64,000 nt of DNA from Diphasiastrum complanatum (taxonomy: Eukaryota; Streptophyta; Lycopodiopsida; Lycopodiales; Lycopodiaceae): contig CM055095.1 in assembly GCA_029204225.1 (NCBI GenBank), positions 69,874,966 through 69,938,965 of the forward strand, read 5' to 3'. Every line of letters begins with the position of its first letter. Position 1 is the first letter of the stretch. The position numbers and the translations under genes are program-made. Below, in pieces: positions 1,682 through 60,200 of this stretch. Under the pieces are notes generated by a model. It was not told where the DNA came from. It searched no databases and saw nothing but the letters and a program-made list of their open reading frames with translations.

Positions 1682-1965
1682 TGTGAAAAATTGTCAACTA
1701 GTAGTATTTTCCTAACTTGAGATTTTGTAGGCCTATGGCCAAATAAAAGTTAGAGATAGGTTCATACATGTATGTAGAGGCCCAAAGTATGTGTACACTA
1801 CTTTTGAGGTCACATTAATTAGAGGAGGTCGAGTGTGGAGCTCTTCTATTGGCTCATAATTTGGTGCATTCCTATTTGACCAAATTTCTAGGTATATGGG
1901 TGAATCCTATTGGACCCCAATTTTAGCCTATCATAAGACAAGTGGCCAAGAGGCACTATGGCTGC

Positions 1966-1973
1966 TATAAATA
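1966..1973 (+). promoter_or_regulatory. LTR TATA box
   Basis: TATAAATA lies 285 bp into LTR1; the same site recurs at 7174-7181 and 12382-12389. It is the likely core promoter for the genomic RNA and marks the end of U3. The transcription start would be about 30 bp downstream, near 2000. Confidence 0.7.
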
Positions 1974-2119
1974 GCCATCTCCACGAGTATGTACACATCT
2001 CATTTTCATTCTATTGAATGAATGTTATGCTCTTTGAAGATCCATCTTCTTCTCTCTCACTTTTTTGTTCATATCTTGCATTCTAGCCACTAGAATTGTG
2101 ATTTCTTTGTTGCTATGGC

Positions 2120-2133
2120 TTCACACGTGTGAA
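2120..2133. promoter_or_regulatory. G-box palindrome in LTR
   Basis: TTCACACGTGTGAA is self-complementary and contains CACGTG, a core recognised by plant bZIP and bHLH factors. Copies lie at 7328-7341 and 12536-12549. It is downstream of the TATA box, so it could act as DNA or as an RNA hairpin in the leader. Confidence 0.6.
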
Positions 2134-2334
2134 ATGCAGGTTGTAGGCTCTGAAGTACGGACAGGGACAGCAAGTTTCTGTTTGTGGAAGCTTATGATCA
2201 GATTTTGATGTTTAGTTGATGTTTAGTATGCTTAACATCACAATTTCTATCATTTTTTCAATCTAGATGTGCATAACTTCCATGGCCAAGATCTTTATGA
2301 AACTTTAGCATCTTTTGGATCTGAGTTTTTCACA

Positions 2335-2346
2335 TGGTATCAGAGC
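2335..2346 (+). other. Primer-binding site (initiator tRNA-Met)
   Basis: TGGTATCAGAGC follows the LTR with no gap and is complementary to the 3' end of plant initiator tRNA-Met, the standard copia primer. The second unit has the same site at 7543-7554. Confidence 0.9.
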
Positions 2347-2943
2347 ATTAGGCGGCCAAATGTGCAGGTTTTGCCAGATTTAGAAGAGATTTGTGGGCGA
2401 GTTTGCTTTTGTAGCATTCCAATCAAGTTTCTAGCTAAAAATCTTGTTGATTTATGTGTAGAAATTGGATCTTTGTGATCAAAACATCATTTGTATGCAT
2501 TTCAATTGAAGTAGGGCGAATTCCCTCTGTACTTATCAGAATAAGGAGACAAAAATTGTTTTGGAAAGAGGGAGATGCAAGATCCAACAAGATCCTATTA
2601 GTTTTCCATTCTAGCATATAGTTTTTTGATTCAATTTCTTGCTTCTTCATGTCAAAAACTTCAAAATTGATGTAACCCTCTGATTTTCAGTTTGCTGAAT
2701 GATTCAAGAGTGTATTTCAATCTTAGGAGTGAGGGAAAAGCAAGTATATTGAGGTTTGGTCTTGGTTTGATCAAGAAATCATAAAACTAGTGGCTAAAAT
2801 TAAGGAAAAAGTGAGGAAAAGAGAGAAAAAGTAAGGTTTTAGGTTCCAAATCTTTGTGATTTCTTCTTGTGTTTCATTTGTTGATTCAAGAGAGTGCTTA
2901 GTGCATTGGAACAGGTCAAAGATCAGAGATCAATCATTGCAAC
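2347..2943 (+). other. Family A untranslated leader
   Basis: About 600 bp between the primer site and the polyprotein start. It carries only short frames that cross the LTR junction and none I recognise. It presumably holds packaging and dimerisation signals. Confidence 0.6.
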
Positions 2944-5900
2944 ATGGCTACAAATGGAGGCTACATGTTGGAAAGCAATGATAGGCTTACCTCCCTCAAC
3001 TATTCTACTTGGAAAGTAAGGATGGAGTCTTTGCTTGAGATGAATGAGTTGATGGATATTGTTGTAGGTGTGGAGGAGAGACCTTTGGCACCTCAAGAAC
3101 AATTGAGGTATGACAAGAGGGCAAAGAAAGCCCTTCACATGATCAAGATGAATGTGACAAATGAGCTTATCAAAGAGGTTGGTAAGTGCACATCATCTAG
3201 TGAAGCTTGGGAAGCCTTGAAGAAGGTTTATGAATCCAAGTCTACTTCTAGAGTGTTGACTTTAAGAAGGCAAATCTTTTCTTGTATGCAAAAGAAGAGT
3301 GAGAATGGACATGCTTTTGTTTTGAGAGTTAAAGCATTGAATGATGAGTTAGCATGCATTAATGATGGCATAAATAATGAGGAGCTTGTTCAAGTGATTC
3401 TCAATGGCTTGTTGGATGATCATGCTAATCTTGTTCAAAGTTATGCTATCCAAAAATGTTTACCAAGTGTTGGAGACTTGCAAGAGGTCTTGTTGGCTGA
3501 AGAATTCAGGTTGCAAGCAAGAGTGGGAGCATCTTCTACATCTCAAGGAGGAGAAGAGGAGGCAATGTTCTCTAAAGGCAAGTTCAAGGGCAAAGGTAAA
3601 AGCAATTGGTCTAAAGGGCAAGACCAAGGTGAGCACTCTACTTTTGGCAAAAAGAAGGATAGATCTAAGCTAAAATGTTTCTATTGTGGAGTCAAAGGGC
3701 ATTTTGCTAGTGATTGTTTTAAGAAAAAGAGGGATCAAGGGGAAAAGCAAACCAATCTAACTATTGATGAGGGTGGGGATGAGCTTCTTTCAAATGATGC
3801 TTTTGTTATGTCATCTTGCTTGTTGGCTAATCATGGAGACATTGATCCTTGGTGGATTGATAGTGGAGCCACTTCTCATATGACATATCATAAAGAGTAT
3901 TTTTCATCTTTAATGGCATTTGATGGTGATAGGAAGGTAATCTATACCGCAAATGATGGTGAGTGTGCAATCAAGGGGATTGGCACAATTCCTATTTCAC
4001 TTTCTACAAATAGGAATATAGAATTGAAAGATGTTTTGCTCATTCCATCCATTACCAAGAACTTACTTAGTGTAAGCCAAATGCTTGACAAAGGATTCAA
4101 AGTTGAGTTTGATGGTGATGCTTGCTTGATCAAAAAGGGGTGTAGTATCATTGCAAAAGGGAAAAGGCAAGGGAAATTGTTCAAGCTTGATGCATGTGTT
4201 GTTGCTAACCAAGTTGGATGCATGGCAAATGAACAAATGTCAATTCAAGAGGTATGGCATAAAAGGATGGGACATCTCAACTACAAGGCCTTGGAGGTAA
4301 TAGCCAAAAAGGAGGTAGTAAGGGGACTTCCCAAGTCTCTTACTTGCTTGAATCATGTTTGTGAAGAATGTGCTTTGTCTAAATCACATAGATTGCCATA
4401 TACTAGATCTATATCTAGATCTAAGATGCCTTTTTCTCTCTTGCATTTGGATATTCATGGTGTTACTACAATTAGCAATGGAGGTGCTAAGATGTATGTA
4501 ACTTTCATTGATGATTTTAGTAGATTTTGTTGGGTTTATCTACTAAAGAGCAAGGATGAGGTGTTTGATGTGTTTGTCAAGTTCAAAGTTGCTATTGAGA
4601 CTCAATTTACAACCAAAATCAAATGCTTGAGGAGCGACAATGGTGGTGAATACATTTCTAACAAATTCAAAGCCTTTTGCGATGAGCATGGGATCAAGAG
4701 GGAGTACACATGTCCAAGAACACCACAACAAAATGGAGTGGCCGAGAGGAAGAATAGAACCTTGTGTGAGAGTGCAAAGGCAATGAGATTGAATGCTAAT
4801 CTTCCTAAACCTTTTTGGAGTGATGCTTTGTTGTGTGCAAATTTCCTTTGCAATAGATGGCCAAGTGTTGTATTGGAAGGAAAAACCCCTTTTGAAGCTT
4901 TGTTTGGTACGAAGCCTAATGTCAAGTTTCTAAGAACTTTTGGATGCATTTGCTACTTCAACATTACTCTTGATGATAGAACTAAGGAGGATCCATCTTC
5001 AAGAAAGGGCATTTTTGTTGGTTATAGTGAAGTAAGCAAAGCATATAGGATTTATGTTCCTTCAATCAAGAAAGTGTTCACAAGTAGGGATGTCATTTTT
5101 GATGAAAGTAACATTCCAAAAGTTGTTTCAAGTGATGATGGTGTTGTTGCAACTAATGTGCTTGATGACAATGGAGTTGATGACACATTGGATGTGGATG
5201 TTGAAGAAGCCTCTTCAAGTCAAATTCCAAGGAGAACTCCAAGGCATAAAGTGAAACCCTCAAGGCTCACTTATGATGGCAAAGGTAAGCAAGTGGTGGA
5301 TGGATCCAACTATGCTTTCCTAACTTCTTTTGATGTACCTTCATGTGTAGATGAAGCAAGGCAAAAAGAGGAATGGATCCAAGCAATGGATCTTGAGTTT
5401 GAAGCACTTATGAAGAACAACACATGGAGATTGGTGGAGCTTCCAAAGGGCAAAAGTGCAATTGGATGCAAATGGATCTTCAAGGTAAAGACAAATCAAG
5501 ATGGATCTATCAACAAGTTGAAGGCAAGGTTGGTGGCTAAAGGTTATGCTCAAGAGCATGGCATTGACTATGAGGAAACCTTTGCACCCGTGGCAAAGAT
5601 GGTGAGCATAAGAGTAATCATTTCCCTTGCAACTCTTTATGGATGGGATCTTTGGCAATTAGACATTTCTAATGCTTTCTTGAATGGTGATCTTGAAGAG
5701 GAAGTCTACATGGAGCAACCCGAGAGCTATGTTTCTCATAGCAAGCCTAATCATGTGTGTTTTCTACAAAAAAGTTTGTATGGTCTTAAGCAAGCACCAA
5801 GGAGTTGGTATGCTAGGCTTAACTCTTTTCTACTTTCTCAAAACTTCACTATGAGTGAGTATGATCATTCACTTTACTTTAGAATTAGTGCTAATGATGT

Positions 5901-6894
5901 TACAATCCTTATAATTTATGTGGATGACATTATTTTAAGTGGAGGGAACAAGGAAGATATAGAAGATATCAAGAAAGCACTAAAAAAGGAATTTGAAGTG
6001 CATGATCTTGGTCTTTTGAGCTATATCTTAGGAATAGAAGTAATTAGAACTTCTCAAATCACTTTTATTTCACAAGAGAAGTATGCTATTTCTATTCTCA
6101 ATAGATTTCATATGGTAGATGCAAATCCTATTGATACACCTATGGAATCACATGTAAAGCTAACTATAAGAGGTAATGAAAGATCCTTCGAGGACATTAC
6201 TCTCTATAGGAAGCTAATAGGTTCTCTTATATATCTAACCATCACAAGACCTGATTTATCTTATTGTGTTGGTAGATTAAGCCAATTCATGCAAGATCCT
6301 AGCATAGAACATTGGAAACTAGGAAAGAGGATCTTGAGATACATCTCGGGAACAAAAGATTTTGGCATTGTTTATAGAGGCTCATCACCTAACTTATTTG
6401 GTTTTTCAGATTCAGATTTTGCAGGAGACCTTATGGATAGAAAATCCATAAATGCACATGCTATTTTCATAGGTGATGGAGCTATCTCATGGATGTCGAA
6501 GAAACAAGCAACTATATCACTTTCTTCTAGTGAGGCCGAGTACAAAGCTTTGACATCATGCACAAAGGAGATGGTGTGGATCAAGAGGATGATTATGGAG
6601 CTTCATTTGCTGGATTTTTCAGAGAGTCCAATCATCTTTTGTGACAACCTTTCAGCCCAAAGTCTAGCAAGCAATCCGGTTTTCCATGCAAGGAGCAAAC
6701 ATATCGAGGTGGCTTACCATTTTGTGAGAGAACAAGTGTTGGCAAAAGAGATCAAGCTTGAACATGTCCCATCAAAGGAATGTGTGGCTGATATCTTTAC
6801 CAAAGCATTGGGAAAGGACTTATTTTTCAAGCATAGAACAAGTCTTGGTGTACTTTCTAAATCTATGCTAAAACTAGTTGAAGAGGGAGTGTGA
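2944..6894 (+). CDS. Copia Gag-Pol polyprotein, family A copy 1
   Basis: Intact single-frame polyprotein of 1,316 residues, the usual size for copia. In order: Gag with an N-terminal SNYSTW-like core (LNYSTWKVRM, near residue 20); CCHC zinc knuckle at 245-258; aspartic protease DSGA at 306-309; integrase HHCC zinc domain from His439; catalytic triad Asp503, Asp565 and Glu601, with 35 residues between the last two; reverse transcriptase with YVDD at 992-995; RNase H from about Asp1156 with SSSEAEY and CDN motifs. The first ATG after the leader was chosen; it opens MATNGG just before the Gag core. The stop overlaps the start of LTR2 by five bases. No frameshift separates Gag from Pol, so protease-driven processing or splicing must set the Gag excess. 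All catalytic residues I can locate are present, so the element could be autonomous. Confidence 0.97.
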   Translation: MATNGGYMLESNDRLTSLNYSTWKVRMESLLEMNELMDIVVGVEERPLAPQEQLRYDKRAKKALHMIKMNVTNELIKEVGKCTSSSEAWEALKKVYESKSTSRVLTLRRQIFSCMQKKSENGHAFVLRVKALNDELACINDGINNEELVQVILNGLLDDHANLVQSYAIQKCLPSVGDLQEVLLAEEFRLQARVGASSTSQGGEEEAMFSKGKFKGKGKSNWSKGQDQGEHSTFGKKKDRSKLKCFYCGVKGHFASDCFKKKRDQGEKQTNLTIDEGGDELLSNDAFVMSSCLLANHGDIDPWWIDSGATSHMTYHKEYFSSLMAFDGDRKVIYTANDGECAIKGIGTIPISLSTNRNIELKDVLLIPSITKNLLSVSQMLDKGFKVEFDGDACLIKKGCSIIAKGKRQGKLFKLDACVVANQVGCMANEQMSIQEVWHKRMGHLNYKALEVIAKKEVVRGLPKSLTCLNHVCEECALSKSHRLPYTRSISRSKMPFSLLHLDIHGVTTISNGGAKMYVTFIDDFSRFCWVYLLKSKDEVFDVFVKFKVAIETQFTTKIKCLRSDNGGEYISNKFKAFCDEHGIKREYTCPRTPQQNGVAERKNRTLCESAKAMRLNANLPKPFWSDALLCANFLCNRWPSVVLEGKTPFEALFGTKPNVKFLRTFGCICYFNITLDDRTKEDPSSRKGIFVGYSEVSKAYRIYVPSIKKVFTSRDVIFDESNIPKVVSSDDGVVATNVLDDNGVDDTLDVDVEEASSSQIPRRTPRHKVKPSRLTYDGKGKQVVDGSNYAFLTSFDVPSCVDEARQKEEWIQAMDLEFEALMKNNTWRLVELPKGKSAIGCKWIFKVKTNQDGSINKLKARLVAKGYAQEHGIDYEETFAPVAKMVSIRVIISLATLYGWDLWQLDISNAFLNGDLEEEVYMEQPESYVSHSKPNHVCFLQKSLYGLKQAPRSWYARLNSFLLSQNFTMSEYDHSLYFRISANDVTILIIYVDDIILSGGNKEDIEDIKKALKKEFEVHDLGLLSYILGIEVIRTSQITFISQEKYAISILNRFHMVDANPIDTPMESHVKLTIRGNERSFEDITLYRKLIGSLIYLTITRPDLSYCVGRLSQFMQDPSIEHWKLGKRILRYISGTKDFGIVYRGSSPNLFGFSDSDFAGDLMDRKSINAHAIFIGDGAISWMSKKQATISLSSSEAEYKALTSCTKEMVWIKRMIMELHLLDFSESPIIFCDNLSAQSLASNPVFHARSKHIEVAYHFVREQVLAKEIKLEHVPSKECVADIFTKALGKDLFFKHRTSLGVLSKSMLKLVEEGV
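6881..6889 (+). other. Polypurine tract
   Basis: AAGAGGGAG abuts the start of LTR2 and overlaps the end of the coding frame. It is the expected plus-strand primer. The equivalent before LTR3 is 12089-12097. Confidence 0.85.
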
Positions 6895-7542
6895 AAAATT
6901 GTCAACTAGTAGTATTTTCCTAACTTGAGATTTTGTAGGCCTATGGCCAAATAAAAGTTAGAGATAGGTTCATACATGTATGTAGAGGCCCAAAGTATGT
7001 GTACACTACTTTTGAGGTCACATTAATTAGAGGAGGTCGAGTGTGGAGCTCTTCTATTGGCTCATAATTTGGTGCATTCCTATTTGACCAAATTTCTAGG
7101 TATATGGGTGAATCCTATTGGACCCCAATTTTAGCCTATCATAAGACAAGTGGCCAAGAGGCACTATGGCTGCTATAAATAGCCATCTCCACGAGTATGT
7201 ACACATCTCATTTTCATTCTATTGAATGAATGTTATGCTCTTTGAAGATCCATCTTCTTCTCTCTCACTTTTTTGTTCATATCTTGCATTCTAGCCACTA
7301 GAATTGTGATTTCTTTGTTGCTATGGCTTCACACGTGTGAAATGCAGGTTGTAGGCTCTGAAGTACGGACAGGGACAGCAAGTTTCTGTTTGTGGAAGCT
7401 TATGATCAGATTTTGATGTTTAGTTGATGTTTAGTATGCTTAACATCACAATTTCTATCATTTTTTCAATCTAGATGTGCATAACTTCCATGGCCAAGAT
7501 CTTTATGAAACTTTAGCATCTTTTGGATCTGAGTTTTTCACA
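6890..7542 (+). repeat. Family A LTR 2, shared middle LTR
   Basis: Serves as the 3' LTR of unit 1 and the 5' LTR of unit 2. It has no target-site duplication: its left neighbour is the polypurine tract and its right neighbour the primer site. TATA box at 7174-7181. Confidence 0.95.
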
Positions 7543-8151
7543 TGGTATCAGAGCATTAGGCGGCCAAATGTGCAGGTTTTGCCAGATTTAGAAGAGATTT
7601 GTGGGCGAGTTTGCTTTTGTAGCATTCCAATCAAGTTTCTAGCTAAAAATCTTGTTGATTTATGTGTAGAAATTGGATCTTTGTGATCAAAACATCATTT
7701 GTATGCATTTCAATTGAAGTAGGGCGAATTCCCTCTGTACTTATCAGAATAAGGAGACAAAAATTGTTTTGGAAAGAGGGAGATGCAAGATCCAACAAGA
7801 TCCTATTAGTTTTCCATTCTAGCATATAGTTTTTTGATTCAATTTCTTGCTTCTTCATGTCAAAAACTTCAAAATTGATGTAACCCTCTGATTTTCAGTT
7901 TGCTGAATGATTCAAGAGTGTATTTCAATCTTAGGAGTGAGGGAAAAGCAAGTATATTGAGGTTTGGTCTTGGTTTGATCAAGAAATCATAAAACTAGTG
8001 GCTAAAATTAAGGAAAAAGTGAGGAAAAGAGAGAAAAAGTAAGGTTTTAGGTTCCAAATCTTTGTGATTTCTTCTTGTGTTTCATTTGTTGATTCAAGAG
8101 AGTGCTTAGTGCATTGGAACAGGTCAAAGATCAGAGATCAATCATTGCAAC
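7543..8151 (+). other. Primer site and leader, unit 2
   Basis: Repeats 2335-2943 at +5,208 bp, with the primer site at 7543-7554. Confidence 0.85.
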
Positions 8152-11100
8152 ATGGCTACAAATGGAGGCTACATGTTGGAAAGCAATGATAGGCTTACCT
8201 CCCTCAACTATTCTACTTGGAAAGTAAGGATGGAGTCTTTGCTTGAGATGAATGAGTTGATGGATATTGTTGTAGGTGTGGAGGAGAGACCTTTGGCACC
8301 TCAAGAACAATTGAGGTATGACAAGAGGGCAAAGAAAGCCCTTCACATGATCAAGATGAATGTGACAAATGAGCTTATCAAAGAGGTTGGTAAGTGCACA
8401 TCATCTAGTGAAGCTTGGGAAGCCTTGAAGAAGGTTTATGAATCCAAGTCTACTTCTAGAGTGTTGACTTTAAGAAGGCAAATCTTTTCTTGTATGCAAA
8501 AGAAGAGTGAGAATGGACATGCTTTTGTTTTGAGAGTTAAAGCATTGAATGATGAGTTAGCATGCATTAATGATGGCATAAATAATGAGGAGCTTGTTCA
8601 AGTGATTCTCAATGGCTTGTTGGATGATCATGCTAATCTTGTTCAAAGTTATGCTATCCAAAAATGTTTACCAAGTGTTGGAGACTTGCAAGAGGTCTTG
8701 TTGGCTGAAGAATTCAGGTTGCAAGCAAGAGTGGGAGCATCTTCTACATCTCAAGGAGGAGAAGAGGAGGCAATGTTCTCTAAAGGCAAGTTCAAGGGCA
8801 AAGGTAAAAGCAATTGGTCTAAAGGGCAAGACCAAGGTGAGCACTCTACTTTTGGCAAAAAGAAGGATAGATCTAAGCTAAAATGTTTCTATTGTGGAGT
8901 CAAAGGGCATTTTGCTAGTGATTGTTTTAAGAAAAAGAGGGATCAAGGGGAAAAGCAAACCAATCTAACTATTGATGAGGGTGGGGATGAGCTTCTTTCA
9001 AATGATGCTTTTGTTATGTCATCTTGCTTGTTGGCTAATCATGGAGACATTGATCCTTGGTGGATTGATAGTGGAGCCACTTCTCATATGACATATCATA
9101 AAGAGTATTTTTCATCTTTAATGGCATTTGATGGTGATAGGAAGGTAATCTATACCGCAAATGATGGTGAGTGTGCAATCAAGGGGATTGGCACAATTCC
9201 TATTTCACTTTCTACAAATAGGAATATAGAATTGAAAGATGTTTTGCTCATTCCATCCATTACCAAGAACTTACTTAGTGTAAGCCAAATGCTTGACAAA
9301 GGATTCAAAGTTGAGTTTGATGGTGATGCTTGCTTGATCAAAAAGGGGTGTAGTATCATTGCAAAAGGGAAAAGGCAAGGGAAATTGTTCAAGCTTGATG
9401 CATGTGTTGTTGCTAACCAAGTTGGATGCATGGCAAATGAACAAATGTCAATTCAAGAGGTATGGCATAAAAGGATGGGACATCTCAACTACAAGGCCTT
9501 GGAGGTAATAGCCAAAAAGGAGGTAGTAAGGGGACTTCCCAAGTCTCTTACTTGCTTGAATCATGTTTGTGAAGAATGTGCTTTGTCTAAATCACATAGA
9601 TTGCCATATACTAGATCTATATCTAGATCTAAGATGCCTTTTTCTCTCTTGCATTTGGATATTCATGGTGTTACTACAATTAGCAATGGAGGTGCTAAGA
9701 TGTATGTAACTTTCATTGATGATTTTAGTAGATTTTGTTGGGTTTATCTACTAAAGAGCAAGGATGAGGTGTTTGATGTGTTTGTCAAGTTCAAAGTTGC
9801 TATTGAGACTCAATTTACAACCAAAATCAAATGCTTGAGGAGCGACAATGGTGGTGAATACATTTCTAACAAATTCAAAGCCTTTTGCGATGAGCATGGG
9901 ATCAAGAGGGAGTACACATGTCCAAGAACACCACAACAAAATGGAGTGGCCGAGAGGAAGAATAGAACCTTGTGTGAGAGTGCAAAGGCAATGAGATTGA
10001 ATGCTAATCTTCCTAAACCTTTTTGGAGTGATGCTTTGTTGTGTGCAAATTTCCTTTGCAATAGATGGCCAAGTGTTGTATTGGAAGGAAAAACCCCTTT
10101 TGAAGCTTTGTTTGGTACGAAGCCTAATGTCAAGTTTCTAAGAACTTTTGGATGCATTTGCTACTTCAACATTACTCTTGATGATAGAACTAAGGAGGAT
10201 CCATCTTCAAGAAAGGGCATTTTTGTTGGTTATAGTGAAGTAAGCAAAGCATATAGGATTTATGTTCCTTCAATCAAGAAAGTGTTCACAAGTAGGGATG
10301 TCATTTTTGATGAAAGTAACATTCCAAAAGTTGTTTCAAGTGATGATGGTGTTGTTGCAACTAATGTGCTTGATGACAATGGAGTTGATGACACATTGGA
10401 TGTGGATGTTGAAGAAGCCTCTTCAAGTCAAATTCCAAGGAGAACTCCAAGGCATAAAGTGAAACCCTCAAGGCTCACTTATGATGGCAAAGGTAAGCAA
10501 GTGGTGGATGGATCCAACTATGCTTTCCTAACTTCTTTTGATGTACCTTCATGTGTAGATGAAGCAAGGCAAAAAGAGGAATGGATCCAAGCAATGGATC
10601 TTGAGTTTGAAGCACTTATGAAGAACAACACATGGAGATTGGTGGAGCTTCCAAAGGGCAAAAGTGCAATTGGATGCAAATGGATCTTCAAGGTAAAGAC
10701 AAATCAAGATGGATCTATCAACAAGTTGAAGGCAAGGTTGGTGGCTAAAGGTTATGCTCAAGAGCATGGCATTGACTATGAGGAAACCTTTGCACCCGTG
10801 GCAAAGATGGTGAGCATAAGAGTAATCATTTCCCTTGCAACTCTTTATGGATGGGATCTTTGGCAATTAGACATTTCTAATGCTTTCTTGAATGGTGATC
10901 TTGAAGAGGAAGTCTACATGGAGCAACCCGAGAGCTATGTTTCTCATAGCAAGCCTAATCATGTGTGTTTTCTACAAAAAAGTTTGTATGGTCTTAAGCA
11001 AGCACCAAGGAGTTGGTATGCTAGGCTTAACTCTTTTCTACTTTCTCAAAACTTCACTATGAGTGAGTATGATCATTCACTTTACTTTAGAATTAGTGCT

Positions 11101-12102
11101 AATGATGTTACAATCCTTATAATTTATGTGGATGACATTATTTTAAGTGGAGGGAACAAGGAAGATATAGAAGATATCAAGAAAGCACTAAAAAAGGAAT
11201 TTGAAGTGCATGATCTTGGTCTTTTGAGCTATATCTTAGGAATAGAAGTAATTAGAACTTCTCAAATCACTTTTATTTCACAAGAGAAGTATGCTATTTC
11301 TATTCTCAATAGATTTCATATGGTAGATGCAAATCCTATTGATACACCTATGGAATCACATGTAAAGCTAACTATAAGAGGTAATGAAAGATCCTTCGAG
11401 GACATTACTCTCTATAGGAAGCTAATAGGTTCTCTTATATATCTAACCATCACAAGACCTGATTTATCTTATTGTGTTGGTAGATTAAGCCAATTCATGC
11501 AAGATCCTAGCATAGAACATTGGAAACTAGGAAAGAGGATCTTGAGATACATCTCGGGAACAAAAGATTTTGGCATTGTTTATAGAGGCTCATCACCTAA
11601 CTTATTTGGTTTTTCAGATTCAGATTTTGCAGGAGACCTTATGGATAGAAAATCCATAAATGCACATGCTATTTTCATAGGTGATGGAGCTATCTCATGG
11701 ATGTCGAAGAAACAAGCAACTATATCACTTTCTTCTAGTGAGGCCGAGTACAAAGCTTTGACATCATGCACAAAGGAGATGGTGTGGATCAAGAGGATGA
11801 TTATGGAGCTTCATTTGCTGGATTTTTCAGAGAGTCCAATCATCTTTTGTGACAACCTTTCAGCCCAAAGTCTAGCAAGCAATCCGGTTTTCCATGCAAG
11901 GAGCAAACATATCGAGGTGGCTTACCATTTTGTGAGAGAACAAGTGTTGGCAAAAGAGATCAAGCTTGAACATGTCCCATCAAAGGAATGTGTGGCTGAT
12001 ATCTTTACCAAAGCATTGGGAAAGGACTTATTTTTCAAGCATAGAACAAGTCTTGGTGTACTTTCTAAATCTATGCTAAAACTAGTTGAAGAGGGAGTGT
12101 GA
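8152..12102 (+). CDS. Copia Gag-Pol polyprotein, family A copy 2
   Basis: Second 1,316-codon frame, with a predicted protein identical to copy 1 over its whole length. The short antisense and out-of-frame ORFs are also identical at +5,208 bp, which argues that the DNA is identical or nearly so. Motif order is the same: CCHC, DSGA, HHCC-DDE integrase, YVDD, RNase H. Purifying selection is not needed to explain the match; very recent duplication or assembly duplication is enough. If real, the locus carries two complete coding copies that could be transcribed from LTR1 and LTR2, or read through as a double-length RNA. Confidence 0.95.
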   Translation: MATNGGYMLESNDRLTSLNYSTWKVRMESLLEMNELMDIVVGVEERPLAPQEQLRYDKRAKKALHMIKMNVTNELIKEVGKCTSSSEAWEALKKVYESKSTSRVLTLRRQIFSCMQKKSENGHAFVLRVKALNDELACINDGINNEELVQVILNGLLDDHANLVQSYAIQKCLPSVGDLQEVLLAEEFRLQARVGASSTSQGGEEEAMFSKGKFKGKGKSNWSKGQDQGEHSTFGKKKDRSKLKCFYCGVKGHFASDCFKKKRDQGEKQTNLTIDEGGDELLSNDAFVMSSCLLANHGDIDPWWIDSGATSHMTYHKEYFSSLMAFDGDRKVIYTANDGECAIKGIGTIPISLSTNRNIELKDVLLIPSITKNLLSVSQMLDKGFKVEFDGDACLIKKGCSIIAKGKRQGKLFKLDACVVANQVGCMANEQMSIQEVWHKRMGHLNYKALEVIAKKEVVRGLPKSLTCLNHVCEECALSKSHRLPYTRSISRSKMPFSLLHLDIHGVTTISNGGAKMYVTFIDDFSRFCWVYLLKSKDEVFDVFVKFKVAIETQFTTKIKCLRSDNGGEYISNKFKAFCDEHGIKREYTCPRTPQQNGVAERKNRTLCESAKAMRLNANLPKPFWSDALLCANFLCNRWPSVVLEGKTPFEALFGTKPNVKFLRTFGCICYFNITLDDRTKEDPSSRKGIFVGYSEVSKAYRIYVPSIKKVFTSRDVIFDESNIPKVVSSDDGVVATNVLDDNGVDDTLDVDVEEASSSQIPRRTPRHKVKPSRLTYDGKGKQVVDGSNYAFLTSFDVPSCVDEARQKEEWIQAMDLEFEALMKNNTWRLVELPKGKSAIGCKWIFKVKTNQDGSINKLKARLVAKGYAQEHGIDYEETFAPVAKMVSIRVIISLATLYGWDLWQLDISNAFLNGDLEEEVYMEQPESYVSHSKPNHVCFLQKSLYGLKQAPRSWYARLNSFLLSQNFTMSEYDHSLYFRISANDVTILIIYVDDIILSGGNKEDIEDIKKALKKEFEVHDLGLLSYILGIEVIRTSQITFISQEKYAISILNRFHMVDANPIDTPMESHVKLTIRGNERSFEDITLYRKLIGSLIYLTITRPDLSYCVGRLSQFMQDPSIEHWKLGKRILRYISGTKDFGIVYRGSSPNLFGFSDSDFAGDLMDRKSINAHAIFIGDGAISWMSKKQATISLSSSEAEYKALTSCTKEMVWIKRMIMELHLLDFSESPIIFCDNLSAQSLASNPVFHARSKHIEVAYHFVREQVLAKEIKLEHVPSKECVADIFTKALGKDLFFKHRTSLGVLSKSMLKLVEEGV

Positions 12103-12750
12103 AAAATTGTCAACTAGTAGTATTTTCCTAACTTGAGATTTTGTAGGCCTATGGCCAAATAAAAGTTAGAGATAGGTTCATACATGTATGTAGAGGCCCA
12201 AAGTATGTGTACACTACTTTTGAGGTCACATTAATTAGAGGAGGTCGAGTGTGGAGCTCTTCTATTGGCTCATAATTTGGTGCATTCCTATTTGACCAAA
12301 TTTCTAGGTATATGGGTGAATCCTATTGGACCCCAATTTTAGCCTATCATAAGACAAGTGGCCAAGAGGCACTATGGCTGCTATAAATAGCCATCTCCAC
12401 GAGTATGTACACATCTCATTTTCATTCTATTGAATGAATGTTATGCTCTTTGAAGATCCATCTTCTTCTCTCTCACTTTTTTGTTCATATCTTGCATTCT
12501 AGCCACTAGAATTGTGATTTCTTTGTTGCTATGGCTTCACACGTGTGAAATGCAGGTTGTAGGCTCTGAAGTACGGACAGGGACAGCAAGTTTCTGTTTG
12601 TGGAAGCTTATGATCAGATTTTGATGTTTAGTTGATGTTTAGTATGCTTAACATCACAATTTCTATCATTTTTTCAATCTAGATGTGCATAACTTCCATG
12701 GCCAAGATCTTTATGAAACTTTAGCATCTTTTGGATCTGAGTTTTTCACA
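12098..12750 (+). repeat. Family A LTR 3
   Basis: Same sequence as LTR1 up to TTTTTCACA, then it diverges at once into flank starting with CCTAT. That divergence point fixes the LTR end. Confidence 0.95.
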
Positions 12751-19140: not shown

Positions 19141-20502
19141 GAAAGCTAAAGGTCTTTTATTGTGGCATCAAAGGACACTTTGCAAGTGACTGCTACAAGA
19201 AGAAGAGATATCAAGGAGATAAGCAAGGTAATCTTACTCATGATGAAGATGGTTTGGATTTTAAAATTCAAACGATGATGATTTTGTGATGTCTTCATGT
19301 ATGCTTGCAGATGATGGAGATCTAGATCCATGGTGGATTGATAGTGGTGCAAGCTCACACATGACTTTTCACAAAGAGTACCTCACTTCTTTGTTGGCAT
19401 ATGAAGATGACAAGAAGGTGATCTACACGGCCAATGATGGTGAGTTTGCAATCAAAGGGATTGGCACAATTCCTATTTCTCTCTCTATAAATAGGATTGT
19501 TCATTTGAAGGATGGTTTGTTCATACCTTCCATTACCAAAAATTTACTTAGTGTGAGTCAATTGCTAAGTAAAGGTTTCAAAGTTGAGTTTGATGGAGAT
19601 GCTTGCATGATCAAAAGGAAGGATATCTTGATTGCAAATGGTAAAAGACAACGGAAGTTGTTCAAACTAGATGCTGGTGTAACCAAGTTGGATTTGTGGA
19701 AAGTGAGCAAATACCTATTCAAGAGGTTTGGCATAAAAGGATGGGGCACCTCAACTTCAAGTCATTGGAGGTAATGGCTAAGAAGCAAGTTGTGATTGGT
19801 CTTCCAAGATCATTAACTAGCATCAATCATGTTTGTGAAATTTTTGCTTTGTCAAAGTCACATAGACTACCTTATACTAGATCTACATCTAGATCTACAA
19901 AGCCTTTTCAAGCTGTACATTCAGATATTCATGGAATTACTACAATTAGCAATAGTGGAGCTAAGATGTATGTAACTTTCATTGCTAATTTTAGTAGATT
20001 TTGTTGGATCTATCTACTAAAGAGCAAAGATGAAGTGTATGATGTATTTGTCGAGTTCAAGAATGCAAGGGAGAACCAACTTCCCACAAGGATCAAGTGC
20101 TTAAAGAGTGACAATGGTGGAGAGTACATATCTACCAAGTTCAAGGCTTTTTGTGATGAGAATGGGATCAAGAGGGAGTACACAACTCCAAGGACACCAC
20201 GACAAATTGGAGTGGCCAAGAGGAAGAATAGGACTTTATGTGAAAGTTCCAAAGCCATGAGGTTAGGTGCTAATCTTCCAAAACCATTTTGGGATCAAGC
20301 CTTGTTGTGTGCTATCTTTCTATGCAATAGGTGGCCGAGTGTTATATTGGATGGAAGAACACCTTCTGAGATGCTATTCAAGAGGAGGCTGAGTGTCAAC
20401 TTTCTTAAAACTTTGGGTGTACTTGCTATGTCAATATAACTCTTGATGGTATGACAAAGGAGGGTCCATCTTCAAGGAAAGGTATATATTGTTGGATATA
20501 GT
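19141..20502 (+). pseudogene. A-like copia relic A2, zinc knuckle to integrase
   Basis: Starts inside a zinc knuckle (YCGIKGHFASDC), then protease DSGA near 19340, then the integrase zinc domain and core. A frame change lies near 19680-19700, so two overlapping frames (19286-19774 and 19696-20439) share the coding. The integrase zinc motif has CEIF where family A has CEEC, and the catalytic Glu is Lys (VAKRKNRT where A has VAERKNRT), so the enzyme would be dead. The copy is interrupted at 20502 by nested element B and resumes at 25804 with no lost codons apart from the duplicated ATAGT. Confidence 0.88.
20498..20502. other. Target-site duplication ATAGT, left of B
   Basis: Repeated at 25804-25808 directly after the right LTR of element B. 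Confidence 0.9.
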
Positions 20503-21334
20503 TGTGCAAAAAGTACAAAAAGGACCAAGAGTGGATCCTAATCTGATCCTCAAGAGGGATTGGTTGTCAGATTACTTGATCTATCAATCTACTTCAAATT
20601 AAGATCAATCTAGATCAATTCTAGACACAAAATCCTAACAAGAACAATTATTAATTGAAGGTAAGTGTACTTTATGGTTTCACATGTGTGAAACATTGTT
20701 TGAGTACGGACTCCAACCTGACAATCAACTACACATTGATAGAACCTCAAAACAATCAAAACAAATGTAGACAAATGGAGAGAATCACTCAAAATTGCTT
20801 CCAAAACCAAGATTGGTGTCTCACATTGATTATGGCCAAATGTGGCTCTATATATACAATAAGTGGGAGCTCGTGGTACTGATCATCCCTCTGATCCCAC
20901 ATGTGTGAAGGTGCTTTGTCATATGATGATTCATCATGCAAAACTGACACTTGGACAAAACCTTCTATTTTGAGCACTTTTGGTCCATGTTTCTTCTATA
21001 TGGAGATCTACTTCGAAATCTTCTAGAGGTCAAAATTCGCCTACTTCAGCTTATTCCACACATGTGAGCTGTCCTCTACACATGGGATATGACACCTAAC
21101 CAAAGGATGTGGCTCATGCAATCAATAGATTGATGTCATGTGTCATATGTCTAGAAAACTAGTTTTTGGCCTTTTTAGCCACTAGAACTTGAATTAAATC
21201 ATATGTACAACCTATATGATTATGGTACATGACAAGTACACTATTTTCACACATGGGAACAGGTTCCACACATGTGTGTTTATCTATATACAAGATTTTT
21301 GGTCTCTACCAAGCTTATTTTTGCATTTTTCACA
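20503..21334 (-). repeat. Element B 3' LTR
   Basis: Nearly identical to 24971-25803. A TATA-like TATATATAG on the minus strand lies at about 20847-20858. It contains repeated CACATGTG-type motifs (20681-20690, about 20896-20910, about 21055-21085 and 21240-21285). Confidence 0.9.
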
Positions 21335-21471
21335 CTCCTCAAAAATCTAGCTTGGTAAATCTAGCTTGATGGAAAACATGATGATCTTGAACTTGACTCC
21401 ATGGGCTGAATTGGTCTTTGCTGGTTCAAAAGGTGTGAAGATCAGCCAATGAGCTTGATGTTGATCTGAAA
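21335..21471 (-). other. Element B 3' untranslated segment and polypurine tract
   Basis: Read on the minus strand it ends with TTTTTGAGGAG just before the LTR, a plausible polypurine tract. Confidence 0.6.
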
Positions 21472-23046
21472 TCACCATATCCATGATAGTGCTTCTTTGA
21501 TGTTGACATCTTTGATGAACTTGAGAGCTTTGCACCATCCTAGCATCTTCAAAATTGATTCCTTCCAAATTTCATGTAGATGCTTGACTTTGAGACTTGC
21601 TCCTTCTTCATGTGCATGCTCCTCCTTGAGAAAATAAAGATTTCTTCTTGACTTATTAGGATCACAAAGATCTAACATCATGTTACCATGATCTAGAGAA
21701 TTAGACTTATCCAAATTGGCAAGACTGTGCATGCTATAATAACAAAGTGTTTGCATCATATCTTCATGCTTGTTTACCATGCTAATCTCAGATCCAATGA
21801 GGCTAAATACTTTATTATGGAGATAAGTGTCTTTAGAAGATGATTCACTTACTCTCATAAAGAGCTTACAATTTGCCTCAATACAAATTTTCAAACTATG
21901 AGTGAACAAATCACTTTTGCTCTTACATGACTCAAGAGCATACATTTGATGAAATAACCATTTGCTTTCTAATTGATTTAAAATCAATTTCAACCTTTTA
22001 AGAACATCATCTATGTTCTCAAGAGAGACTTCATACTCAACTAGTATGGCTTTACTCCAATTTTGAGATGCAATGATCTCACTAAAGCAAATTGATTTAT
22101 CAAATGACATAAGAGAAGTAAGTATGTGATGTATATCACATGAGATATGCTCCTCTTTCCCTTGAAATGTGAGCCACATGGACTCAACCATATTTCTTGA
22201 GTTTCTTTTTGGAATCACAATTTGAGAAGGTCTCTCCTCAATCCTTGGCACACTTGAACCTTGAGATGACTCCTTAAGATCCTCTTCATGATGCTCCTTC
22301 TTGATGGAAAACCGAGACCTCCATGTCTCATAATGATCACAACAAGTATGACCATTCAATATGCACTTCCTATGATTATCAAGATTACTTATGCTAGAAA
22401 CATAAGTCCAAAAATCACCACAACTTGGCATGATTTTTCCAATATTGAAATCAAAAGGCATTTCCATCTCAATAAGGCTAACTACTTGCTTATGGATATA
22501 AGTGTCCACTTTGGATGCTTCACTTATTCTCATAAGAAGTTTACAACTTGCCTTTAAGATTGAAAACTTACAATTTTCATCTTTATGAATGAACACATCA
22601 TTCATGATCTTATTGAAACCAAAAGATCCTACATTATGAAGATATTTCCATTTCCTTGACTTCATAACTAATGTAAGCTTATAAGGAAAACATATTTTGC
22701 TATCTTTTAAGGCATCACACTCAACTAGTATTGCCTTAATCCACCTTTGAGATACAAACATCTCTTCAAAGCAAAATGGTTCTTCATAAGTTGACATGAT
22801 AGCATAAATGAAACTATTTTTATTTTGTGATTGCTGCTCCTTATTCTTGATTGATTTCTCTTGGATCATAACAATAAGTTTGAACTTATCTAAAGTTCCA
22901 AGCAAAATACTTTCCAAGGACATAAAATAGATCCAAATGACTTTCATGAAAGTGACATCTATCTTTGCATCTTGAACCAAACAATGCACTTCCAAATGAA
23001 AAATTTCAAAAGATTTGACATGTGTTGTGATGGACTCTTGTTGCAA
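21472..23046 (-). CDS. Long ORF of element B with internal duplication
   Basis: A 524-codon open stretch beginning at a TTG, so the true start is not set. One TGA and 18 sense bases upstream, in the same frame, lies the zinc-knuckle frame 23068-23271, so the two were probably one frame. Residues 1-60 resemble a Gag helical segment (ITTHVKSFEI, HLEVH). Residues about 81-256 and 307-481 align with each other: WIKAILVE/WSKAILVE, CKLLMRISE/CKLFMRVSE, DTYIHKQVVSLI/DTYLHNKVFSLI, KKEHHEED/KEEHAHEE. Between them, residues 262-305 (PRIEERPSQIVIPKRNSRN) look like the basic linker that joins copia integrase to RT. No catalytic motif is visible. It could be a Gag-like protein enlarged by duplication or a captured sequence; I do not know its function. 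Confidence 0.6.
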   Translation of the reverse strand: MQQESITTHVKSFEIFHLEVHCLVQDAKIDVTFMKVIWIYFMSLESILLGTLDKFKLIVMIQEKSIKNKEQQSQNKNSFIYAIMSTYEEPFCFEEMFVSQRWIKAILVECDALKDSKICFPYKLTLVMKSRKWKYLHNVGSFGFNKIMNDVFIHKDENCKFSILKASCKLLMRISEASKVDTYIHKQVVSLIEMEMPFDFNIGKIMPSCGDFWTYVSSISNLDNHRKCILNGHTCCDHYETWRSRFSIKKEHHEEDLKESSQGSSVPRIEERPSQIVIPKRNSRNMVESMWLTFQGKEEHISCDIHHILTSLMSFDKSICFSEIIASQNWSKAILVEYEVSLENIDDVLKRLKLILNQLESKWLFHQMYALESCKSKSDLFTHSLKICIEANCKLFMRVSESSSKDTYLHNKVFSLIGSEISMVNKHEDMMQTLCYYSMHSLANLDKSNSLDHGNMMLDLCDPNKSRRNLYFLKEEHAHEEGASLKVKHLHEIWKESILKMLGWCKALKFIKDVNIKEALSWIW

Positions 23047-23067
23047 GCCCTTGTGAGACTCGAAGCC

Positions 23068-23271
23068 TCATTCACCTTTCCACAAAGGAAACACCTTTCC
23101 TTCCTTGGACTTGTCCTTCTTGTGTTTGCATTTTGAACTTGAAGCTCCATCCTTCACCTCGGCCCCATTGCTTTGGTTCTCCTTGGATGGATTGGTCTTC
23201 TTTTTGTAGCATCTTGAGAAAAAATATCCTCCCTTGCCACAAAGGTTGCACTCATGATCCTTTCTTTCCAT
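23068..23271 (-). CDS. Zinc-knuckle ORF of element B
   Basis: 67 codons with CNLCGKGGYFFSRC near the start, a CX2CX4HX4C knuckle in which the His is Tyr, followed by a Lys-rich stretch. A second Cys pattern (CFLCG...C) is readable in an overlapping frame (22959-23150). Its TGA stop is all that separates it from the long downstream ORF in the same frame. In ordinary copia elements the knuckle follows Gag; here it precedes the Gag-like segment, so the interior is rearranged. The upstream frame 23154-23372 may be a frameshifted continuation. Confidence 0.5.
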   Translation of the reverse strand: MERKDHECNLCGKGGYFFSRCYKKKTNPSKENQSNGAEVKDGASSSKCKHKKDKSKEGKVFPLWKGE

Positions 23272-23372
23272 AGGACGCCACCTATTGATGCCATGTGAAT
23301 AAAAACTTGTGATATGATTCTACAAATGTAATTTGTGACTTTCAAGAGACTAGATTTGAACATCTTCAACAA

Positions 23373-24958
23373 TCTAGAAGGACCTACAAAAGATCTAGCT
23401 CACAAACCTAAGAATCAATCTTCACAGTAATGACTAGTCACTTGGAAACTTTGCTTTGATCACTAAGACAAAAGCACACAATCTTTAAATCAAATCACTA
23501 AAGAAATTAGATCCAATCTCCTATTAAACTCATCGAATACCAATGACTCTTTCTTTCAAAAGTTGAAATGGATATGAAAAACATTTGACACCTAGATTTT
23601 CTTTTTCAATTGACTAGTTCTCTCAACACTTGAGATTCTTGAACAAAAGACGGGTTTTGTTTCAAATACATGAAAATCAAACTTAATCACTTCTTTTGGA
23701 CTCACTCTTGACCCAAATAATCTCACACTTGAGATTTATAATGAATTTGATTTGATTGACAACAAACTATACCACCAATTTTTCACAAAGCTTAAAAAAT
23801 TAGACAACTAGAGATTCACAAAGATCTCAACCATGCATGAATACTCAAATATGGACTCCTCCTCATTCTAGACATCCAATGGGATCTCAAATTGACCCTC
23901 ACACTCTCACAAAGAAAGTTGAATAGAACTAATTTGAGTTTCATACATACTATGTCAATTTTTGCTCAATAAATTGAATTCAATCACTCCTATTGGATTC
24001 CACCAATTACTCTACTTTTTAAGACTTGGAATGAAATTCAAAATCAAAAGTTGTGATTTTTCTCACTAAGATATTGTGCTTCAAAGAGCTAATGCCACTT
24101 AGAAATATTTGATCACCTAGGAGAATACAAATTCTCCACCAATAACAACACAAAATGAGCTTCTAGATCTTGCCTTCTACAAAGGAAGGAACTCTTAGAA
24201 AATTGGATCTCTCTCTACACATTTGCCATAGACACCTTAATGCCTCTTTTCAAACCTCACAAACACTCAAAAAAATTGAGTAGGATTGAACAATGTGACT
24301 TGGATCTCAATCTCTTTTCTAGAACTCTCAATTTAAGCCAATCTATGTCAAATTCTACAAAAGATTTGAATAGATGCTCTATATGCACTAGAAACTCTCA
24401 AAGGTTTCACTTGGAGGACAGATCCAAAGATGTTTTCTAGCAAATTGATGCTTCTAAACTTTACCCTATCACTCTTGAACAAATCTAGAGTGATGGTACA
24501 ATGGATTTCAACCTCTCACCTTGCATATCACTCCTTAACCTATGATTTTTAGCAAAATCTCTCTCAACTTCAACATGCACTCAAAAAATCAGAGATGATC
24601 AATTAATGCACCTATTTCAAGCTTCAAATTTAATTTCTTGGCTGATCTAATCCAATAACTAATCAAAGGATTAGATTCTCTATAGAAAATGCTTGATTTT
24701 GCACCAAAAATCTCTCAAATTGGGTGTGTGAGTCAAACTGTACAAATTTTTGAATTTTCTCTGCCAAAACTGGAGCTGTATGGCCTCACACGTGTGAAAA
24801 GGGTTCCTACAGCCCACAACAAGTTCTGGTCCAAAAATTTTGAGAATATCTATCAAATCCAACTTGCTACCCAAAATTTGACTAGTTTCCAAAAAACTGC
24901 TAATTTTGGCTTTGATTTGGATTAGCCCTATCAATTTCAACAAAACCTCTTGTACTAG
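23373..24958 (-). other. Element B leader, non-coding
   Basis: About 1.6 kb between the primer site and the first coding signal, AT-rich with no convincing frame. A TCACACGTGTGA palindrome sits at 24786-24797. A long non-coding leader is typical of large retrotransposon derivatives that move in trans. Confidence 0.5.
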
Positions 24959-24970
24959 GCTCTGATACCA
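24959..24970 (-). other. Primer-binding site of element B
   Basis: GCTCTGATACCA on the plus strand is the reverse complement of the initiator tRNA-Met site and touches the LTR at 24971. Confidence 0.9.
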
Positions 24971-25803
24971 TGTGCAAAAAGGTACAAAAAGGACCAAGAG
25001 TGGATCCTAATCTGATCCTCAAGAGGGATTGGTTGTCAGATTACTTGATCTATCAATCTACTTCAGATTAAGATCAATCTAGATCAATTCTAGACACAAA
25101 ATCCTAACAAGAACAATTATTAATTGAAGGTAAGTGTACTTTATGGTTTCACACGTGTGAAACACTGTCTGAGTACGGACTCCAACCTGACAATCAAGTA
25201 CACATTGATAGAACCTCAAAACAATCAAAACAAATGTAGACAAATGGAGAGAATCACTCAAAATTGCTTCCAAAACCAAGATTGGTGTCTCACATTGATT
25301 ATGGCCAAATGTGGCTCTATATATACAATAAGTGGGAGCTCGTGGTACTGATCATCCCTCTGATCCCACATGTGTGAAGGTGCTTTGTCATATGATGATT
25401 CATCATGCAAAACTGACACTTGGACAAAACCTTCTACTTTGAGCACTTTTGGTCCATTTTTCTTCTATATGGAGATCTACTTGGAAATCTTCTAGAAGTC
25501 AAAATTCGCCTACTTCAACTTATTCCACACATGTGAGCTGTCCTCTACACATGGGATATGACACCTAACCAAAGGATGTGGCTCATGCAATCAATAGATT
25601 GATGCCATGTGTCATATGTCTAGAAAACTAGTTTTTGGTCTTTTTAGCCACTAGAACTTGAATTAAATCATATGTACAATCTATATGATTATGGTACATG
25701 ACAAGTACACTATTTTCACACGTGGGAATAGGTTCCACACATGTGTGTTTATCTATATACAAGATTTTTGGCCTCTACCAAGCTTATTTTTGCATTTTTC
25801 ACA
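24971..25803 (-). repeat. Element B 5' LTR
   Basis: 833 bp, one base longer than the left copy with scattered substitutions. It contains the perfect 16-bp palindrome TTTCACACGTGTGAAA at 25147-25162 and a minus-strand TATATATAG near 25315-25327. Confidence 0.9.
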
Positions 25804-26800
25804 ATAGTGAGGTGAGTAAAGCCTACAAGGTTTACATTCTTACTACTAATAAGGTGATTATTGGTAGAGATGTCGTTTTTTATGAGGGGAATATTCCAAA
25901 GGTGTGTTCAATTGATAATGTTGTGGATGGATCTAACATTTTTGATATTGATGTAAAGGATCCTACTTTAGATGGTGATGATGTAGGACCTTCATCAAGT
26001 CGAAATTCAAAGAGAACATCAAGGGAAAGACAAATGCTTTCAAGGCTCACATATGATGAGAAAGGTAAGCAAGTTGTTGGAGGTACACACTTTGCTTTCG
26101 TAACCTTTTTGATGAACCTACTTGTGTAGATGAAGCAAAGAACAAAGAGGAGTGGATCCAAGCAATGGATCTTGAGTATCAAACTCTTATGAAGAATGAA
26201 ACATGGAGACTGGTGGAGTTACCTAAGGACAAGAGAGCTATTGGATGAAAATGGATCTTCAAGGTGAAGACAAACCAAGATGGATCTATCAATAAGTATA
26301 AGGCAAGGTTGGTGGCAAAAGGATATGCTCAAGAACATAGTATTGACTGTGATGAAACCTTTGCACCCGTGGCAAAGATGGTGAGTATTCGAGTCATTAT
26401 ATCTCTTGCTACTCTTTATGGTGGGATCTACGGCAATGATCTTGGTCATTTGCATCACATTTTAGGAATAGAAGTGATTTGATCTTTTCAATCTACTTTC
26501 ATTTCTCAAGAAAAGTATGCTAATTCTATTCTAAAAAGATTTCATATGGTAGATGCAAAGTCTTGTGATACACCTATGGAGTAAAATGTAAAGCTAACTA
26601 TAAGAGGTAATGAAAGATCCTTCAAGGACATTACTCTCTATAGAAAGCTAGGTGGTTCACTTATCTATCTAACCATCACGAGACCAGATCTAAGCTATTG
26701 TCTTGGTAGATTGAGCCAATTCATGCAAGATGCTATATCATGGATGTCAAAGAAACAAGCCACTAATTCATTGTCATCTAGTGAGGCCGAGTTCAAAACA
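25804..26800 (+). pseudogene. A-like copia relic A2, linker to RNase H
   Basis: Continues the frame broken at 20502: linker (SEVSKAYKVY onward), then the N-terminal RT part (DGSINKYKARLVAKGYAQEH). An internal deletion near 26436 joins LATLYG directly to HDLG-like codons and removes the YVDD catalytic site. A second deletion near 26731 joins the start of RNase H to its AISWMSKKQA segment. Stops occur near 26246, 26479 and 26581. The relic ends near 26800 where minus-strand family D sequence begins. Confidence 0.85.

Positions 26801-40743: not shown

Positions 40744-41485
<742 letters not shown>

Positions 41486-59410: not shown

Positions 59411-60200
<790 letters not shown>

Follow-up and report, generated by a model that had tools for sequence, protein, structure and literature searches.

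Our analysis of a 64-kb stretch of DNA (the window) suggests that the sequence at 20503-25803, here called element B, is probably a young, non-autonomous Ty1/copia LTR retrotransposon with a single ORF derived from Pol; we consider this explanation likely as a whole, including mobilization in trans and a frame that was long kept open. The ORF would have descended from a copia Pol in which the protease, most of the integrase, the RT core and the RNase H are gone or unrecognizable, and the remaining parts would be a relic of the zinc knuckle, the N-terminal stretch of the integrase, the integrase-RT linker and the N-terminal segment of RT. The unit headed by this RT segment would have been duplicated in frame, and the source copies would have kept the frame open long after the catalytic parts disappeared.

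The nested copia elements of the window suggest plant DNA, and only one copy of B was seen. It has two LTRs with TG..CA ends, a 5-bp target-site duplication, a PBS and a short PPT read by eye, as is typical of LTR retrotransposons:

20498..20502, unstranded: left target-site duplication, ATAGT, the same as 25804-25808
20503..21334, minus strand: 3′ LTR, 97.96% identity to 24971-25803
21335..21340, minus strand: putative PPT, the short purine tract GAGGAG located 5′ of the 3′ LTR (by-eye reading)
24959..24970, minus strand: PBS, TGGTATCAGAGC, an exact match that adjoins the 5′ LTR
24971..25803, minus strand: 5′ LTR, 97.96% identity to 20503..21334
25804..25808, unstranded: right target-site duplication, ATAGT, the same as 20498..20502

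B reads leftwards, because TGGTATCAGAGC, which we take to be of the tRNA-iMet type, adjoins the LTR at 24971 on the minus strand. An intact copia at 1682-12750, with a complete gag-pol of 1330 codons, shows GAAGAGGGAG at the position equivalent to the GAGGAG tract of B. Between the two LTRs of B, 16 of 832 aligned bases are mismatched, 13 by transition (K2P 0.0195), which at substitution rates of 1.3e-8 or 7e-9 corresponds to an age of about 0.75 or 1.4 My, respectively. B is inserted in another copia, whose halves (19143-20502 and 25804-26437) flank it and both match the intact copia.

The coding part of B is a minus-strand frame of 615 codons (23319..21472) with one TGA only, organized as follows:

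23320..24958, minus strand: long leader with no recognizable gag or long ORF, its three minus-strand frames being full of stops
23071..23319, minus strand: 83 upstream codons in the same frame, with the zinc knuckle (around 23209-23250)
23068..23070, minus strand: single in-frame TGA, codon 84 of the frame
21472..23067, minus strand: long ORF after the TGA, 531 codons, Pol-derived according to frame, tblastn, shuffle and profile tests
22300..22827, minus strand: duplicated unit 1, residues 81-256, from DNA and protein self-alignment
21625..22149, minus strand: duplicated unit 2, residues 307-481, from DNA and protein self-alignment

The first-pass annotation had described a frame of about 600 codons broken by one TGA; its size and its stop (at 23070-23068) hold, but the end given at 23271 falls short of the true frame, which reaches 23319. 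The longest stop-free run in the interior of B is 531 codons, whereas no run exceeded 217 codons among 500 mononucleotide shuffles or 210 among 500 second-order Markov sequences, and each of the remaining five frames across the 531-codon part contains 30 to 70 stops. From the LTR divergence we expected 0.56 new stops per 615 codons since insertion, with one or more stops in 44% of 5000 simulations; therefore, one TGA is compatible with a fully open source copy. LARD and TRIM elements are defined by having no coding capacity, and the 615-codon frame with one stop sets B apart from them.

Using tblastn against the window, the ORF matched the Pol of the intact copia in frame (E 1.1e-6), and the reverse search with the copia Pol retrieved 22236-21952 (E 1.2e-5, 28.4% identity). 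In alignments with Pol evaluated with 1000 shuffles each and a Gumbel fit, the whole ORF scored 115 versus a shuffle maximum of 82 (fitted p 1.3e-7), whereas the reversed ORF scored 43. By parts, the fitted p was 3.2e-7 for residues 257-400, 2.6e-5 for residues 1-80, and 4.8e-4 for unit 1 alone (81-256; score 65, matching the shuffle maximum), while unit 2 alone (307-481) was weak (score 65, shuffle maximum 73, p 1.9e-3) and residues 400-531 gave p 0.08. Homology to Pol is thus clear for the linker-RT stretch and, for each of the remaining parts by itself, no more than suggestive. Codon-position identity between the ORF and Pol was left out of the evidence, because an alignment guided by protein biases this measure.

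Profiles were built from the copias in the window (3 to 7 rows each), with neither element B nor the second, identical copy of the intact copia among them, and were compared with decoys from 2000 shuffled ORFs and, later, with six-frame decoys from 300 leader shuffles. The following matches were obtained:

22810..23058, minus strand: decayed integrase N-terminal stretch, residues 4-86; 12.6 bits, 0/2000 shuffled ORFs as high, decoy maximum 7.4
22705..22839, minus strand: RT N-terminal segment, copy 1, residues 77-121; 10.9 bits as second domain of the linker-RT profile, decoy maximum 7.2
21940..22257, minus strand: integrase-RT linker plus RT N-terminus, copy 2, residues 271-376; 27.0 bits, 0/2000 decoys as high, decoy maximum 7.2
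21682..21960, minus strand: possible, uncertain RT C-terminal remnant, residues 370-462; weak, 6.8 bits, 3/2000 decoys as high

Under six-frame decoys the linker-RT match stayed clear (26.5 versus a maximum of 1.8) and the integrase match became marginal (12.1 versus 11.4). For the possible RT C-terminal remnant, a narrower profile gave 3.6 bits, with 14/2000 decoys as high, and a targeted alignment of residues 396-440, a region picked after the match had been seen, was equalled by none of 2000 shuffles. A two-row profile of the units aligned both of them to the RT N-terminus of a Pol profile, with scores of 36.8 and 34.3 versus a maximum of 25.7 in 200 column shuffles; the corresponding HHalign probabilities were low (28% and 17%) despite E values of 6e-4 to 1.4e-3. 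The RT N-terminal segment occurs twice in the ORF, once at the head of each unit, and by these alignments the repeat is a sequence that begins with the copia RT N-terminal segment, in the same frame as in Pol.

Upstream of the TGA, the 83 codons aligned with the copia knuckle with a score of 66, reached by 0/2000 shuffles against the knuckle region (maximum 64); against the whole Pol the score was again 66, with a shuffle maximum of 81 and a fitted p of 1.7e-3. The zinc knuckle reported earlier is present as a motif, CX2CX4YX4C, at about 23209-23250, although its metal-binding His is replaced by Tyr. The remnants follow the copia coding order, in frame (knuckle, integrase and linker-RT, the integrase link being marginal in one control), and it is because of this ordinary order that the knuckle lies ahead of what had been taken for a Gag-like part; this part is better described as decayed and rearranged Pol, since it matches Pol and no Gag profile beyond decoys. 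Likewise, the earlier statement that the interior has neither integrase nor RT did not stand, as the ORF matches the N-terminal sequence of the copia integrase as well as the linker between integrase and RT with the RT N-terminus. Among the observations named as speaking against a novel protein was a repeat clearly homologous to ordinary copia Pol in a shifted frame; such homology was largely found, but in frame and with no more than 28.4% identity in its best stretch.

Conversely, the catalytic parts of Pol are lost or unrecognizable. Profiles for mid-RT (Pol 880-1000), RNase H and the C-terminus found nothing in the ORF, in agreement with the absence of RNase H noted previously, and those for the pre-integrase and the RT core (Pol 980-1060) gave no match beyond decoys; the protease profile did no better (2.4 bits, 54/1601 scoring decoys as high). 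The Y-x-D-D motif is absent from the ORF, and two aligned aspartates, catalytic in integrases, are replaced (D to E and D to Q). The C-terminus of the ORF seemed by eye a plausible counterpart of that of copia, but 1486/2000 shuffles aligned as well. It is very unlikely that the ORF protein is an enzyme. Ty1/copia elements are recognized by functional protease, integrase, RT and RNase H, and with these parts lost or unrecognizable B is therefore a Ty1/copia derivative and not an autonomous member.

The internal duplication of about 175 residues, proposed from inspection of the sequence, is real. At the DNA level, 21795-22097 and 22470-22781 are 68.9% identical over 322 columns (E 6.7e-22), and the proteins of units 1 and 2, with 60 identities in 181 aligned codons, gave a local score of 181 versus a maximum of 61 in 1000 shuffles. 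Neither unit contains a stop, which supports the earlier reading of an old duplication kept open in frame.

Neutral drift would hardly leave such a frame. When 183 Pol codons were drifted to 26% identity, they accumulated a mean of 10 stops and 0/400 runs were stop-free. As an internal control, the copia enclosing B retains 78% DNA identity to the intact copia, yet it is split over three frames. Second codon positions of the ORF, for which values are given below, also have a coding look. It is safe to say that stops were kept out of the frame; selection on the frame and a function of the ORF are what we infer from this single copy of B. As for that function, we tentatively favour an accessory or adaptor protein that would touch the Gag-Pol or the particle of the partner and so favour the RNA of B itself. 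The more ambitious proposal, that a dead Pol has turned into a new, duplicated, non-enzymatic protein, a retrotransposon pseudoenzyme selected for steering or interfering with the particles of the autonomous copia on which B depends, we hold to be doubtful.

Rather unlikely, too, is that the frame was kept open for translation itself, for the sake of RNA stability against nonsense-mediated decay or of access to the particles of the partner, with the amino acids left to drift. This would account for two units with zero stops that differ almost equally at the three codon positions (79, 68 and 79 of 181) and whose dN/dS is about 0.9 (Nei-Gojobori, 0.88; bootstrap interval 0.58-1.28), a value with which residue-level purifying selection is not demonstrable. 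It would also account for the outcome of drifting one unit to the observed divergence, which left at most 0.15% of 2000 runs stop-free (P 0.0015 or less) under two substitution models. However, the composition of the ORF is Pol-like (amino-acid correlation of 0.81 with Pol and 0.64 with a stop-free model), and its second codon positions deviate strongly from random stop-free sequence of leader composition (p 5e-7; first, p 0.049; third, p 0.81), a result that is model-dependent, since with the composition of the ORF itself the values were p 0.0014, 0.66 and 0.028 for second, first and third positions. Additionally, the 1.6-kb leader between the PBS and the ORF contains 14 ATGs, which speaks against simple cap-dependent translation and makes efficient translation of the ORF doubtful without splicing or another device.

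We consider improbable that B is a plain fossil, copied passively and with an open frame that is a leftover of Pol not yet decayed. Its catalytic parts are indeed lost and no residue constraint was seen between the units, and there are known cases of non-autonomous copias whose coding regions have decayed, such as RLC_Angela of wheat (PMC9744471). Nevertheless, the ORF has diverged from Pol far too much to be a leftover without stops, as the drift runs indicate, the copia around B is already split over three frames, and the decay of wheat Angela shows numerous frameshifts and stops (PMC9744471).

That the copia knuckle was joined to a captured host gene or to an entirely new protein is very improbable, even though well over half of each unit lacks a significant relative. 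Searches of the ORF and its parts against Pfam gave no match above curated cut-offs, and Pfam and PDB sequence searches together yielded nothing useful, their one sub-threshold match (UPF0122, E 0.089) being taken as chance. An ORF scan of viral contigs and a search with the two-unit alignment found no relative; a scan of prokaryote genomes returned a single match, of 43 columns to a Lokiarchaeota contig, judged to be chance because it has a stop codon inside and was picked by a shared 8-mer. The linker-RT match of 27 bits and the second match heading unit 1, in copia order and frame, point instead to Pol, and the suggestion of captured host sequence is not supported, given that the repeat begins with the copia RT N-terminal segment in frame.

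The least probable reading is a Gag-bearing element of the TR-GAG type with a much diverged capsid domain: B does have a single ORF, no enzymes and intact LTRs, but its ORF matches Pol, and a Gag profile (7 rows, from the copias in the window) reached -1.9 bits over the region of the ORF and -0.2 bits over the leader, where 10/276 scoring decoys were as high. None of the seven profiles run on the leader exceeded decoys, so that Gag was rejected for both leader and ORF, and the enlarged structural protein of the first-pass annotation is not supported.

To return to a Pol-derived element that depends on a partner, B and the intact copia have in common the start of the LTR (TGTGAAAAAT), the PBS, colinear Pol segments and a palindrome in the LTRs:

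25148..25161, unstranded: palindrome TTCACACGTGTGAA in the LTR, shared with those of the intact copia, from a motif count

The palindrome has 17 strand-wise matches with at most one mismatch in the window, versus 0.08 expected. The PBS alone is weak evidence of partnership, because the window contains 8 exact occurrences of these 12 bases. The two elements differ in that the intact copia has its complete 1330-codon gag-pol and in the 3′ ends of the LTRs, TTTTTGCACA in B and TTTTTCACA in the intact copia. A wider similarity between their LTRs was sought and discarded: beyond the termini there is one 15-base match only, which contains the 14-base palindrome and was equalled by score in 1/200 shuffles. 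The shared LTR start, PBS and palindrome make it likely that B was mobilized in trans, probably by the enzymes of a copia from the same clade as the 1682-12750 element, in line with the earlier view of a trans-mobilized LTR element without enzymes.

Several non-autonomous LTR elements invite comparison with B. Morgane of wheat is one such element, with a degenerate gag-pol region. For RLG_Quinta of wheat, identical PBS and LTR termini were among the criteria that pointed to the partner RLG_Cereba, and Quinta resembles B in keeping an ORF, which includes a domain of unknown function; however, Quinta has a clear GAG and pairs with a centromeric RLG (gypsy) element (PMC11302176), whereas B is a copia without recognizable Gag and with an ORF that appears to be a dead Pol derivative. 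TR-GAG elements are also LTR elements that contain one ORF and are believed to depend on the enzymes of another element for their movement, but they encode GAG (PMC8704663), which was not detected in B, whose ORF is apparently Pol-derived. Non-autonomous RLC_Angela is, like B, a copia whose coding region has decayed, and autonomous relatives with matching LTRs are inferred to mobilize it; it differs in its numerous frameshifts and stops (PMC9744471), while B, although far more diverged, has an open frame with a duplication inside it. In the cited papers, non-autonomous plant LTR elements either retain Gag, as TR-GAG and Quinta do, or carry a coding region in decay, as Angela does. Our literature search found no element with an open, duplicated and catalytically dead Pol, although one may still exist in print. 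If our explanation is true, parasitic elements are able to make new proteins out of their own polymerase, with a dead Pol rearranged, duplicated and kept open, and B would make it possible to test how such an element interacts with its helper at the protein level.

Some minor features of the window are worth recording. The G-box-like palindrome TTCACAYGTGTGAA is repeated far more often than chance predicts, at 2120, 7328, 12536, 20679 and 25148, and with one mismatch at 21246, 24785, 25715, 31741 and 40946; these sites lie in LTRs, both those of the intact copia and those of B, and once in the leader of B (24785), with 31741 and 40946 outside assigned elements, and TTCACAYGTGTGAA is possibly a shared LTR regulatory site. 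The 1682-12750 region is an LTR-internal-LTR-internal-LTR tandem of copies that are 100% identical, each with a 1330-codon gag-pol ORF, and a single CCTAT target duplication surrounds the whole array, which represents either a recent unequal exchange or an assembly duplication. Finally, in a self comparison, 59571-59801 and 41073-41176 match in opposite orientation at many two-base shifts, and are apparently simple dinucleotide arrays.
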